Assembly (NCBI RefSeq): GCF_035046485.1
Contig: NC_085138.1
Span: 60,245,254 to 60,309,253, forward strand
DNA: 64,000 nt
From: Aedes albopictus
Taxonomy: Eukaryota > Arthropoda > Insecta > Diptera > Culicidae
Direction of reading: 5' to 3'
Within the stretch, counting starts at the first letter, position 1. Each line of letters starts with the position of its first letter. Of this stretch, positions 26,171 through 51,793 are shown piece by piece. Below the pieces are notes generated by a model. That model was not told where the DNA came from. It did no database searches and saw only the letters and a list, made by a program, of their open reading frames with translations. A program made the position numbers and the translations under genes.

Positions 26171-26928
26171 ATAGACTATTTGGCGAAAAAAGTCTAAACC
26201 TTCAAAAAGGAACAAATTGCGCGCAAGATTTCTCAAACTACTCTAAACCCTTGAGCCATCAATGGTTAGACAGCCCCCAAGGTCCCAAAATTCCTAACAG
26301 GAAGGCATCCAAGAGCTCTTGAATCATTCGGATATGCTGAATTTCAAACAATCAAAGGAAAGATATCAGACGAGCTTCTGTTAGTCCTACCAGTGTTGCC
26401 AGATATTGAAATATGCATTATAATGTGGTGGTAATTGGTTCTTATTTTCAGTACACGGTTGCTAGAGTTCAAAGAGAGTCTCCACAATAGCCACCGTCCT
26501 CCATTCTGCTCGAGTTTTATTAAGTACAAATAAATTCGAATTGATTCGAAATTGCTACTCGCTTCTGGCTTATTCACTGGTGCTAAACAGGTCTTCGAAT
26601 ATAAAAAATACATACTCGGAAAGTCAAGTGCTACACTCTCATATAAATATTTAAAGCATTATTTAGAACCGAGTTTCTAAAAAAAAATATTTGAATTTTT
26701 GAAAAAATGCTAAAATAAATCAATTTTTCCTACAAGTTTTTAAAGTTTTGAATTTTTACAATTGTATTTCATAAAATATTGAATTACAGTAGCTATGTAA
26801 GTCGCTGTTTAGGAGAATAAAGCGAAGTTAAATTGCCATCTGAAGCCAGAATTTCTAAAAGTTACCTTACCTTCATCAATAGGGTTTTTTTTAAATCTAA
26901 TTCCCGTCTAACTAAGCACCGACCAATA
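26171..26928. other. AT-rich DNA, nothing recognised
   Basis: There are no inverted or direct repeats, tRNA-like heads or convincing frames in this segment. Confidence 0.35.
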
Positions 26929-27607
26929 ACACAAGTTTACAAAATAAAACGAAAGTCGTGAACTTCTGTCAACGACCAAAATTTTTGAAGCACAATTTAG
27001 TGCTGATTTCAAAACCGACCTTCAAAAAAATTAAAGTAGAACAGTTTTTGAGTTTTACCTCAATATCGAGTTTTGTAAATTTTCAAAATATGTAATTTAC
27101 TAAAATTCAAATATATTGCGTTTTGTTCAATCAATTTTAAATCTTTTTCCATAAATTGAAAGCTGAATACAATACCATTCGATCATCTGAATACAGGTTT
27201 TGCGTCAGATTGATGAAATTCAAGATGTTGGCGAGTTTTGGGGACGATCTTCTTAAATTTTGGCAAAATTCCCAATTTTTTTTGAAGAAATGTATTTTTT
27301 TCAATAAGAAAAAAACAACTTAAAAATTCTTTCTCGACGTTTATTTGACATATCATATGTAGGCGAGTTACAGTAAAAATTTCAGCTCAATCGGAGCATT
27401 GATTACGAAGAATGAGATGTTTGAAGTGAGCGACTTTGCTTAAAAATAGAACAAAAAATGATTTCAAATCATCAACGTTGTATGGGAAGTCGAAAAATTT
27501 TCCGCTCTACTGTAATTTTTTTCCTTCGCGTTTTCGAATTCAGGGCATGATTCTACACCAAAAATGATCATCAGCTTACCGAGTTCAAAAATGCTGTAAA
27601 CTAGTGT
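26929..27607 (+). mobile_element. 0.68-kb MITE, copy 1
   Basis: Ends ACACAAGTTTACA and TGTAAACTAGTGT are inverted. The whole element is about 90 percent like the copy at 28117-28800, by eye. Non-coding and AT-rich; no transposase. Confidence 0.75.
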
Positions 27608-28116
27608 AATGATTGAGTTGCACCTCGCGTAATGTCTCATGTCTAATTTGGTATCAATTACTGATTTAAAAGTAAGCTTCCATATCATGTGAAAACATAT
27701 TGTGAAAGCAGTTTAATTTCCTTCAAATAATAAAATTGAATAATTGTCCCTCGATTTCTGTTTCCTTCTAGTCCACGTTTATTTCGGCTACTTCCTGAAT
27801 TCAATTCCCGTCATACCTTCTACGTGACTCTATGGTACCTAGAACGTTCAAAATTATGATTTGATCGTAGGTGTATATTCGAAAACTCGGTCATACGCAC
27901 ACATTTGCATGCATCCTCCCTAGATGAAGACAACTTGTTGCTTAAATTCTACCAATGGGAAAAAGTGACTTATTCAATTAATTAAACAGCTTTTGCTGCA
28001 TATCGCAGCAGTGAAATCCAACTTTGAAGTTCCACAGAGCTTTAGTGGAGTGTGAATTGAAGGTTGTTTCAACACGTGAATCTGGCAAAGTGCAAATCGA
28101 TCGTAGACGAAGAATA
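27608..28116. other. Spacer between two MITE copies
   Basis: Unique, non-repetitive sequence with no credible frame. Confidence 0.4.
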
Positions 28117-28800
28117 ACACTAGTTTACAGAATAAAACGAAAGTCGTGAATTTCTGTCAACGATTAAAATTTCTGAAGCAAAATTTAGCGCTGATTTCGA
28201 AACCGACCTTCAAAAAATTTTAAGTAGAACAGTTTTTGAGTTTTAGCTCAATATCGAGTTTTACAACTTTTCAAAATATGTAATTTACTAATATTCAAAT
28301 ATATTGCTTTTTGTTCAACCAATTTTAAATCTTTTTCCATAAATCAAAAGCTGAATACAATACCATTCGACCATTTGAATACAGGTTCTACGTCAGATTG
28401 ATAAAATTCAAGATATTGACGAGTTTTAGGGACGATCTCCTTAAATTTTAGCAAAATTCTCAAAATTTATTGAAGAAATGTATTTTTTTTTTTTCAAAAA
28501 GAAAAAACCAATTTAAAAATTCTTTCTCAACGTTTATTTGACACATCATATGTAGGCGAGTTACAGTAAAAATTTCAGCTCAATCGGAGCATTGATTACG
28601 GAGAACGAGATGTTTGAAGTGAGCGACTTTGCTTAAAAATAGAACAAAAATCTATTTCAAATCATCAACCTTGTATGGAAAGTCGAAAAAAATTCTGCTC
28701 TACTGTAATTTTTTTCCTTTGCGTTTTCGAACTCAGGGCATGATTCTACACCAAAAACGATCATCAGCTTAGCGAGTTCAAAAATGCTGTAAACTAGTGT
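28117..28800 (+). mobile_element. 0.68-kb MITE, copy 2
   Basis: The ends ACACTAGTTTACAG and CTGTAAACTAGTGT are perfect 14-bp inverted repeats. It is a direct repeat of copy 1, about 510 bp away and in the same orientation. The target duplication is not clear. Confidence 0.8.
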
Positions 28801-29670
28801 AATTTGGCTAGCTTTGGTGCGGTTGCCCTCGTCGATCGTAAAACGTAAAAAAACAGCTCGTAAGTGGAGTGAAATTGACGCGTTAAATTTTACGTAATTA
28901 TTCTATTTCCAGTGCTATAAGGGCTAGTTATTGATAGTCTACATCTTTTTGCATCCATCGGATGAGCCATTGGCAAAGGGAAGTTGGAATATCTGTAATT
29001 ATTGGTTATTTCCTGTCTGATATGACGGAAATCAGCGCATACGACGAAGTAGATTTCTACCCTACTTACAGTTTGCTGTACATTCGACATCTTATGTTTG
29101 CAAGTTATATTTTTCAATGAGGGATATAATAATTGTTGAGAATTTTTTTTCTCTCCCTCTCTCATCACGAACTTTTTTACCCCTCGTTCCCCAACACGTC
29201 AGCAAGGCGAAAACGTCACATGGCGATTAACTACAAGACAAGGAAAAACTGCGCTCGCCCCGCTTAGAGGACAATCGCCGTGATGATCTTTTCCGTGACG
29301 ACAACATCGCGCTGCCGCTGTAGGTCACTGCAATTTACATGCCCTGACGGGGAGGGAAATTTACCTGACGGAATAAACCACGACGCGACGCGACGGACGG
29401 ACTTCTGCCACACGAAAGGTTAATGAACCCACCACAGCCCATCACCACCGGCAAGCGACCAGGAAAGGAGAAATAGTGCGCGCGAGGAAACTGATCCGAT
29501 GTTGTGATGAATGCGATTGATGACGCTTTGGATGGTTATTATCATTCGGGTGGAACACCTGTCATAAGCGTTCATAATCGTGTCAGAGGGGGAACTTTCT
29601 ACAATTGACCACGACTGCGACCCAAGATGAATTGTTTGATTGGTCATGGATTTGTTTTGACGGGAATACA
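28801..29670. other. Unique DNA with GC-richer island
   Basis: From about 29150 to 29480 the sequence is GC-richer with many CGACG-type phrases and no repeat. There is no convincing frame or splice site. It is a candidate conserved non-coding segment. Confidence 0.3.
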
Positions 29671-38264: not shown

Positions 38265-38425
38265 AAAACTTGTAATTAGAAGGTACGAAATGTTGCTAAT
38301 TGACAAATTGAGAGATAAAATTGCTGAAAAAAGGTTGTCACGTGTTCTGTTGGGATTTAAACCCACAACTCCGTACTCGCTAGATTGGCGCTTTAACCAA
38401 CTAAGCCACAGAACGCGAGTGTGTT
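38265..38425 (-). mobile_element. tRNA-derived SINE, left arm of inverted pair
   Basis: On the minus strand GTTCTGTGGCTTAGTTGG begins at about 38417, followed by a B-box GTGGGTTTAAATCCC and a tail with TTGTCAATTAGCAAC. The same order appears on the plus strand at 38526-38685. The two copies diverge from a ~100-bp centre. Confidence 0.65.
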
Positions 38426-38525
38426 GTTGTTTGGCATCTAAGCCGAAAGAGAGATGGGTTTGTGAAAAAGGAGCGTTCACGGTGTGGCTTCGGAGTCAGT
38501 TGGGCTTTCTATTCCGCAGAAATGT

Positions 38526-38685
38526 TACTTGTTCTGTGGCTTAGTTGGTTAAAGCGGCGGTCTAGCGAATACGGAGTTGTGGGTTCAAATCCCACCAGAA
38601 CGCGATTTTTATCAAATTTTATCTCTGAATTTGTCAATTAGCAACTTCGTGAATTCTAATTACAAGTTTTTCGACTTTGTTTCAG
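38526..38685 (+). mobile_element. tRNA-derived SINE, right arm of inverted pair
   Basis: The head can fold with a 7-bp acceptor stem (TGTTCTG with CAGAACG), a D stem GCTT/AAGC and a T stem GTGGG/CCCAC, so it is very tRNA-like. The anticodon stem does not pair well. The sequence shared with the left arm continues for about 80 bp past the tRNA 3' end, so this is a SINE, not a tRNA gene. Confidence 0.65.
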
Positions 38686-49989: not shown

Positions 49990-49994
49990 CGACG
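49990..49994 (+). repeat. 5-bp target duplication CGACG, left
   Basis: It is identical to 51789-51793 on the other side of the element. A GC-rich 5-bp duplication is the Transib and RAG transposition pattern. Confidence 0.75.
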
Positions 49995-50033
49995 CACAGT
50001 GGCGGGGCTCCATACAAATGCCGGACAAAACCT
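49995..50033 (+). promoter_or_regulatory. 23-RSS-like recombination end
   Basis: Heptamer CACAGTG, spacer of exactly 23 bp starting GCGGGG and ending CCGG, nonamer-like ACAAAACCT. The heptamer abuts the flanking DNA as in an RSS. Confidence 0.75.
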
Positions 50034-51760
50034 AAAACTTTCTCCAAATGCGCTGAAATTCACATGTCTAGATAATTTGGGTGTGCTGAATCTATTTCTG
50101 GCATCAAAATTTACATAACTTGCATTATTTTTGTATAAAAGTAGGTTTAAAGTATTAAAATAACCTTAGTTTTAATAAAAATAATAAAAAGCTCATAATA
50201 AATAAGCTGGCATCATGTTTATTTGTTTTGGAATATAGTTTTAGTGCTCTATGTTACAAAAAAGATTGGATGATATGTTAATCTACATAGTTTTCTTGAT
50301 GAAGCATGTAGAATTGTATAAAAATGCGAGTTAACAAGGCAAAAATGCTACACACTTTTTATTACTTAAGTGAGGGTTACATTCTATTCATCATGTCACA
50401 CAGCAAAAAAAAAACAATGACCATACCTCATACCACATCTAGGTAAAACAAAAGTCGACAATACAAGCTCATAACACAGACAAACAGACATCTCATGCTA
50501 CTCACTTCCCATTGATCCTCTTATTAACAGTTAGATCAAATAATCGGTAGTTCGTAAGTCGCACGCTCATGGCTCTCGCATAATTTTTGCTCCTGTTTGA
50601 CGTTTGTTCACTACCGCCACCTAGTTATGAGATTGCAAAACATTGGCATTGATAACCGGTTTGATTGGCATTGAGCGATTATGTTCTTGTGACCATTATT
50701 TAAATCGCTATTTGTTCGAAGTGATACGTCTGTTTGTCTGTGCGTTGGTCTGCGGTCACCATTTCAGTGGCTTTTTTGAGTCGCCGAATTTCCGAGAACG
50801 TAGTTTAGCAAATGAAACCTTGGATGATTAGTTGATAAAATAATAATTATGCATAATGTAAGGTATATTCGTTTTTGAACGTACAAGAAATCCGTTATTT
50901 TATTAAACTTATTAAAAGGTAAACCAAATATAGCTACTTACTCTAATATAATCGATGAAAATACAGTATATCACAAAACCATTCAATAACCGCTCTGTTG
51001 TGTTTGCTCAAAAATGCACTTGTCGAATACTGTACCAACGTAATGCTGTCTCAAGAGATCGAATGCGCGACAATAAGCAGGTTAAAACCCCTTCCCAGTA
51101 CATTCTGCATAAGTGATAACGCAACATATCAATATACTACAATGACTTTTATATTCTGGATGGAAATTTTAAAAGATATTCTCTAAGTTTACGTTCGAAA
51201 ACAAAATTCATATATTTTCGACTGTTCCGCAACCATGCGTCGCCATTACAACTTTTATTCAAAAAAGTAAATTATTCGTTCTTAGCGCAGTTTTGCGCAG
51301 ACAGTGGCGTATATCCCCAAAAACTAGACAAGATTGGGGGTTAGATGCAACACACCTGATCGTTCCGAACTGTTTCATTAAAAAGTACTAGATCAATGTA
51401 GCCTGAATTCATAATCAAAAAAATCAGTAAAAGTTATATTTTTTGAATGGTTTAAAAGACAACAAATGTAAGCAAAGATTAAGATTAAATGTTGTAATGC
51501 TGAGGTTAAATGTATCCCAAAACAATAACAAAATTCATGGATTTCAATATCAGCTACATGTTACACACTGCGACATTGAAATTATGGTTTTAAATTATGA
51601 TGATAAAAACAAATTATTCAGTACATAATTGTTCAACTTTGAAAAATTCCCCTGGGCTCAATTTTGATTCAATTGACCTGAAATTTTGGATTTATCTTAG
51701 TTGAAGTATTTATAATAAAAGAAAAATATCAAAGCAATGAAATTTTGAGATGAAATTTTG

Positions 51761-51788
51761 AGGTTTTGTCCGGCCTCCGGCCACTGTG
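51761..51788 (-). promoter_or_regulatory. 12-RSS-like recombination end
   Basis: Same heptamer and same nonamer-like motif as the left end, separated by exactly 12 bp (GCCGGAGGCCGG). Sequence similarity to the left end resumes past the nonamer (AAAACTTTC against AAAATTTC). Confidence 0.75.
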
Positions 51789-51793
51789 CGACG
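51789..51793 (+). repeat. 5-bp target duplication CGACG, right
   Basis: Perfect copy of 49990-49994. Confidence 0.75.

Follow-up and report, generated by a model that had tools for sequence, protein, structure and literature searches.

End structure of the element in the window

Does a mosquito genome hold a transposon whose two ends are built like the 12-RSS and 23-RSS of V(D)J recombination, and what would such an asymmetry mean for its family? The question is raised by the window, the whole stretch of 64,000 nucleotides of Aedes albopictus DNA analyzed here, in which a CGACG-flanked element of 1,794 bp without a transposase gene occupies positions 49995-51788. An initial annotation had described ends that both start with CACAGTG, spacers of exactly 23 bp on the left and 12 bp on the right, and a CGACG duplication outside. 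All three statements were borne out: the heptamers lie at 49995-50001 (forward strand) and 51788-51782 (reverse strand), the spacer lengths are exact, and CGACG is found at 49990-49994 and 51789-51793. The features are as follows.

49990..49994, no strand: target-site duplication CGACG, left copy
49995..51788, forward: Transib-type element, non-autonomous, 1794 bp, without transposase gene
49995..50001, forward: left heptamer CACAGTG
50002..50024, forward: left-end spacer, 23 bp
50014..50022, forward: second nonamer-like box ACAAATGCC within the left spacer, separated from the heptamer by 12 bp, 7/9 to consensus
50025..50033, forward: left nonamer ACAAAACCT, 7/9 to consensus
50475..50742, no strand: internal inverted-repeat element with CACAGACAAACAGAC ends, a separate repeat family with further genomic copies
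51737..51762, forward: 13-bp tandem unit, two copies, adjoining the right nonamer
51761..51769, reverse: right nonamer ACAAAACCT, 7/9 to consensus
51770..51781, reverse: right-end spacer, 12 bp
51782..51788, reverse: right heptamer CACAGTG
51789..51793, no strand: target-site duplication CGACG, right copy

Both ends share CACAGTGGC and GCCGGACAAAACCT, and the 11-bp difference in their lengths sits between these two blocks. Because the longest stretch between stop codons is only 75 codons (74 to 77 in the eight whole copies described below), we take the element to lack a transposase. To gauge chance, we looked for exact CAC-heptamer pairs whose 5-bp flanks are equal. The window holds one such pair, which has a 14-mer as its inner shared word; its 200 dinucleotide-shuffled versions together held 38, and among these the longest inner shared word was 9.

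Other repeats were seen in the window. The small inverted-repeat family with CACAGACAAACAGAC ends has members at window 50475-50742, L021 8243-8495, L017 3295-3554, and L025 338-592; by eye, 7-bp repeats flank the L021 and L017 members, the L025 flanks have one mismatch, and the window copy has no such flanks. One repeat occurs twice, at 26926-27611 and 28114-28803, and also lies in L016 and inside the L013 element described below (element positions 881-1566). Two facing tRNA-like stretches at 38342-38603, one of them called as tRNA-Arg, are probably SINE-derived. A Pfam search of 10 open frames of the window gave no host gene above the cut-off.

Copies of the family and their empty sites

The host genome comprises 1,344,132,971 bases in 1,494 contigs, the first three of 338, 519, and 450 Mb. 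We searched it for copies of the element, scoring 40 of 2,085 candidates, and obtained at least 53 match rows. Ends were taken from eight whole loci, one of which is the copy in the window itself, and from 52 short stretches, using only rows that reached an end, and each spacer was measured to the best match to ACAAAACCT within 5 to 35 bp. With the window included, the spacer was 23 bp at all 30 left ends and 12 bp at all 38 right ends, so copies with the same ends and variable spacers were absent from the 68 ends read. CAC opened every one of these ends, with the exact CACAGTG in 65 and the exact ACAAAACCT in 63. A perfect 5-bp duplication flanked 25 of the 29 two-ended copies; three of the other four (L044/L045, L056/L057, and L060/L061) had, by eye, a 1-bp indel at the right boundary, and the fourth (L070/L071) had one mismatch. 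The duplications gave the consensus CGWCG, with C at position 1 in 26 of the 29, G at position 2 in 19, C at position 4 in 20, and G at position 5 in 26. The spacer asymmetry (68/68), the heptamer, the nonamer, and the GC-rich 5-bp duplication (25/29), which the initial annotation had proposed to look for elsewhere, are common to the other copies read.

Pairwise identity among the eight whole copies was 92.7 to 98.4%. Spacer substitutions were shared between copies with different duplications (L076/L077 versus L078/L079, and L064/L065 versus L066/L067), which suggests that ends carrying altered spacer letters stayed mobile. Two copies, at G000:C2:170888778-170891228 and 170927721-170930169, lie 39 kb apart and have common left-end substitutions and differing 5-bp duplications.

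Searches with the end pattern gave 0 matches in viral_contigs and none among plasmids or phages. The six matches in genome_contigs (L001-L006) were fewer than the roughly 12 estimated by chance from 20 fixed bases, a 26-fold variable gap, and 257 billion bases, and we took them as chance.

To test for empty sites, we fused the two flanks of each of the eight whole copies, leaving out one duplication, and aligned them to the sampled DNA stretches and the window. The L033 site was unoccupied at L022 1235-1443 (97% over 209 bp, with TGATG for CGATG) and also at window 3295-3179, and the L032 site was unoccupied at L026 1434-1733 (82%, with a single CATGG). Empty sites therefore exist for two of these eight copies, as cut-and-paste movement in the Transib superfamily predicts. 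The expectation of an empty site with a single target held for L033 and L032; for the CGACG site of the window element, no empty counterpart turned up in the DNA compared. A chance arrangement of an inverted repeat, which the single copy in the window would allow, is refuted by the shuffle controls, by the 25 of 29 two-ended copies with both 23/12 spacing and a perfect 5-bp duplication, and by the empty sites, and we consider it vanishingly improbable.

A sister family with 23/12 ends and a symmetric family in the same genome

The pattern CACAGTGN{5,35}ACAAAACCT matched the host genome 939 times (454 + 485), versus 55 times for the reversed pattern. Among the 100 matches listed, which all come from one chromosome and include one spacer-12 row from an unrelated repeat, the spacer was 23 bp in 46, 12 bp in 42, 11 bp in 9, and 5, 24, and 33 bp in one each. 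Facing neighbors within 30 kb among these listed matches were 12/23 in 35 of 35 cases; 34 of the pairs span 1.8 to 6.1 kb, and the remaining one, at 23.4 kb, may not be a single element. Judged by spacer letters, most of the listed matches come from a sister family. It keeps the 23/12 spacing, and its two aligned members, L091 and L092, share 74 to 78% identity with the window family over the terminal regions. Among the three longer 23/12 pairs that we read, the CGACG duplication was perfect at L091 only, and the flanks were unmatched at L092 (CGTGG/CGCTG) and L090 (CGGTG/CAAAG).

We also scanned the window, twenty regularly placed 10-kb stretches, and 1 kb of chromosome end for elements of this type and found two more. 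The first, L013 2637-5516, is symmetric, with 2,880 bp, CACAGTG at both ends, a CGACG duplication, and inverted repeats of about 655 bp. The second, L022 1922-3525, is a near-complete palindrome of 1,604 bp with CACGGTG, identical ends, and a CATCG duplication. The inner shared words of the three real elements were 14, 21, and 25 long, versus a maximum of 13 in 30 shuffle rounds of the same DNA. Two stretches scanned later (L028 and L029) held no element of the kind.

The L013-type pattern, CACAGTGN{5,35}TCAAAACCT, had 544 genomic matches versus 40 for the control. Its spacer was 22 bp in 86 of the 100 matches listed and 12 bp in four, which by their letters are other repeats. The 35 facing pairs among these listed matches span 1.1 to 13.9 kb; 30 are 22/22, and five pair a 22-bp spacer with one of 21, 23, or 24 bp. 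Ends of this symmetric family have an A-rich stretch near 12 bp (6/9) and CAAAACCT near 23 bp. One heptamer thus serves both symmetric and asymmetric families within one genome.

A separate repeat, for example at G000:C1:13992409-13992504, carries the exact consensus heptamer and nonamer 11 bp apart (CACAGTGACTTCTGCGCA-ACAAAAACC). Its pattern matched 1,374 times versus 37 for the control; by eye, all but three of the listed rows have 11 bp, and several listed pairs face inward with starts 69 bp apart. We rejected it as a 12-RSS family, since nearly every listed row has a spacer of 11 and its close pairs face inward. Its existence means that near-RSS strings occur in other repeats.

Superfamily assignment and the search for a transposase

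The window family has the CAC-initial, RSS-heptamer-like terminal inverted repeats of the Transib superfamily (CAC in 68 of 68 ends, CACAGTG in 65), and its GC-rich 5-bp duplications (25 of 29 perfect, CGWCG) match those of the superfamily. The 12- and 23-bp spacing, within 1 bp, of asymmetric Transibs is present at all 68 ends and in all 35 facing pairs listed. Ends and duplication therefore fit a Transib-type element across copies, as the initial annotation had it.

CAC-initial ends also occur outside Transib. Target duplications are 4 bp long in Chapaev, 3 bp in Chapaev3 and CACTA, and 8 bp in hAT. The CAC-initial ends found outside Transib would admit an origin of the window element in another such superfamily (Chapaev/CACTA-like or hAT), an origin that we regard as very improbable: the 5-bp GC-rich duplication of 25 of the 29 copies stands against the 4-, 3-, and 8-bp lengths of those groups, and CACAGTG with an A-rich box fits Transib as described in the source excerpts.

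Both the 5-bp duplications and the relation between RAG1 and Transib are covered in excerpts of PMC7204232, PMC4411706, PMC6941560, and PMC11844651. From the ends and the target duplication alone, we infer that the window family is linked to RAG1. The window feature is very likely to be one copy of a non-autonomous Transib-superfamily family whose movement depends on a RAG1-like DDE transposase supplied in trans from elsewhere.

An autonomous copy encoding a transposase with a RAG1-like core, which the initial annotation had suggested seeking, was not found among the elements and long copies read. Neither the window element nor L013 has a long frame in any of six frames, and the longest open stretch is 105 codons in L022 and 92 codons in L090-L092. 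The PF12940 profile had no match in the host genome, and likewise none in 14 control genomes. The mouse RAG1 core fragment versus the Transib structure 6pqn gave an E value of 0.0087, and a RAG1/RAG1L profile gave 2e-7. A protein search with the mouse fragment listed 12 proteins, which were RAG1 or RAG1-like where named; none was named Transib.

End structure, copies, target duplication, target preference, and empty sites were seen directly for the family. By analogy with the superfamily, the transposase would bring together a left end of the 23 type and a right end of the 12 type and would cleave at the CAC of each heptamer, leaving hairpins on the flanks. The blunt ends would then be inserted 5 bp apart into CGWCG-like targets, which would yield the 5-bp duplication.

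Comparison of the ends with V(D)J recombination signals

The V(D)J consensus is given as CACAGTG-N12/23-ACAAAAACC in an excerpt of PMC9723617. The heptamer of the window element equals this consensus at 7 of 7 positions and its spacers are exactly 12 and 23 bp, like those of vertebrate 12-RSS and 23-RSS; its nonamer, ACAAAACCT, matches ACAAAAACC at 7 of 9 positions at both ends. A score of at least 7 is reached by 452 of the 127,984 9-mers of the window (0.35%). The ends had been called a canonical 23-RSS/12-RSS pair; this holds for heptamer and spacing, whereas the nonamer, at 7/9, is not canonical. The window element differs from the vertebrate signals in further ways: its ends are part of a mobile element, the sequence of its left spacer is itself largely kept, and its 23-type end has a second box at 12 bp.

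That second box, ACAAATGCC, likewise scores 7/9 against the consensus nonamer. Among the matches listed there are 18 distinct 23-bp spacers; 15 have ACAAA at the place of the 12-bp box, and the 9-mer there matches the consensus nonamer at 7/9 in nine, 6/9 in six, and 5/9 in three. In both 23/12 families, the left end thus carries one nonamer-like box at 12 bp and another 11 bp further in, at 23 bp, and the right end carries the 12-bp box only. From this layout in two related families, the 23-type end might be a 12-type end extended by one helical turn, with a second nonamer box further in, a reading that we consider improbable.

Inheritance or function of the asymmetry

At the right end, the copies differed in 2 of 604 heptamer and nonamer cells and in 17 of 456 spacer cells (Fisher p 5e-5, a value that is too small because the cells share ancestry). 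At the left end there was no contrast, with 6 of 480 heptamer and nonamer cells versus 12 of 690 spacer cells. The aligner placed one indel inside the left ends, a 2-bp insert in the L036 nonamer, and three inside the right ends, each of whole 13-bp tandem units adjoining the nonamer. From neighboring indel rates, about 0.4 spacer indels would be expected without constraint over all left spacers and about 0.6 over all right spacers. Because this amounts to only about one indel, constancy of spacer length is uninformative within the family; as proof of selection it is ruled out, and constant length among the copies is mostly inheritance.

The N in the names TransibN1-N3 is taken to denote non-autonomous elements. 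An excerpt of PMC8355894, citing Kapitonov & Jurka 2005, lists Transib5 of Drosophila melanogaster and Transib2, N1, N2, and N3 of Anopheles gambiae as 12/23 asymmetric and others as symmetric with spacers of 20 to 22 bp. Compared by description only, these five resemble the window family in insect host, 12/23 spacing (within 1 bp), and heptamer and nonamer-like boxes. Ends of this kind are therefore already published, and the window family is not the first case; the same excerpt uses 12/23-ended Transibs in arguments on the origin of V(D)J-signal asymmetry. Ends are symmetric in most Transib families according to an excerpt of PMC8289069, and Subgroup II Transibs include both symmetric and asymmetric members in an excerpt of PMC9435367. 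HzTransib of Helicoverpa zea (PDB 6pqn) shares the CAC-start heptamer and Transib-type ends, but its ends are symmetric, with little or no nonamer similarity in the excerpt of PMC8289069, versus 23/12 here. ProtoRAG and AanRAGL resemble the window family in their asymmetric bipartite ends and GC-biased 5-bp duplication but have spacers of their own, 27/31 (PMC8289069) and 4/13 (PMC9435367), and carry RAG1L and RAG2L genes, as far as these excerpts go.

It is quite possible, if short of probable, that 23/12 spacing is a family accident, in which a founder had a left end longer by 11 bp and its descendants inherited it; heterotypic pairing would then be unneeded and the vertebrate match coincidental. 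Such an accident is compatible with Transib identity and opposes only a functional reading of the asymmetry. It gains from the symmetry of a CACAGTG family with a near-identical CAAAACCT, in which 30 of the 35 listed facing pairs are 22/22 and five lie within 2 bp of that, and whose member L013 has the same CGACG duplication. The third element, L022, with CACGGTG and identical ends, points the same way, as do the 0.4 plus 0.6 indels expected over all spacers read and the 1,374 matches of the separate repeat whose exact consensus heptamer and nonamer stand 11 bp apart. One founder in this genome fails to explain, however, why 23/12 was retained across two families 74 to 78% identical at their terminal regions, why all 35 listed facing pairs are 12/23, and why comparable families are reported, in the excerpted literature, in Anopheles and Drosophila.

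The initial annotation had proposed that this insect element follows a 12/23 asymmetry with an exact vertebrate heptamer. The asymmetry stands at 68 of 68 ends; it yields no general 12/23 rule, because the symmetric 22/22 family in the same genome has the same heptamer. The asymmetry is a trait of one lineage, not of all Transib-type elements of the genome, and any functional role for it is putative. Caution is therefore due, since asymmetry in one family is no basis for a general rule.

The A. albopictus genome offers hundreds of matched ends, a large sample from nature: among the facing pairs listed, two diverged families are 23/12 without exception, and beside them stands a 22/22 family with the same heptamer. 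Whether a Transib transposase requires 12/23 pairing or tolerates it becomes a question answerable from natural ends. If both left-end boxes are bound, the genome would keep a step from symmetric Transib ends to a 12/23 pair. Should the two-box reading be true, the symmetric family, A-rich near 12 bp and with CAAAACCT near 23 bp, would represent the alternative state, and natural elements within a single genome would allow a test of how the 12/23 rule arose.
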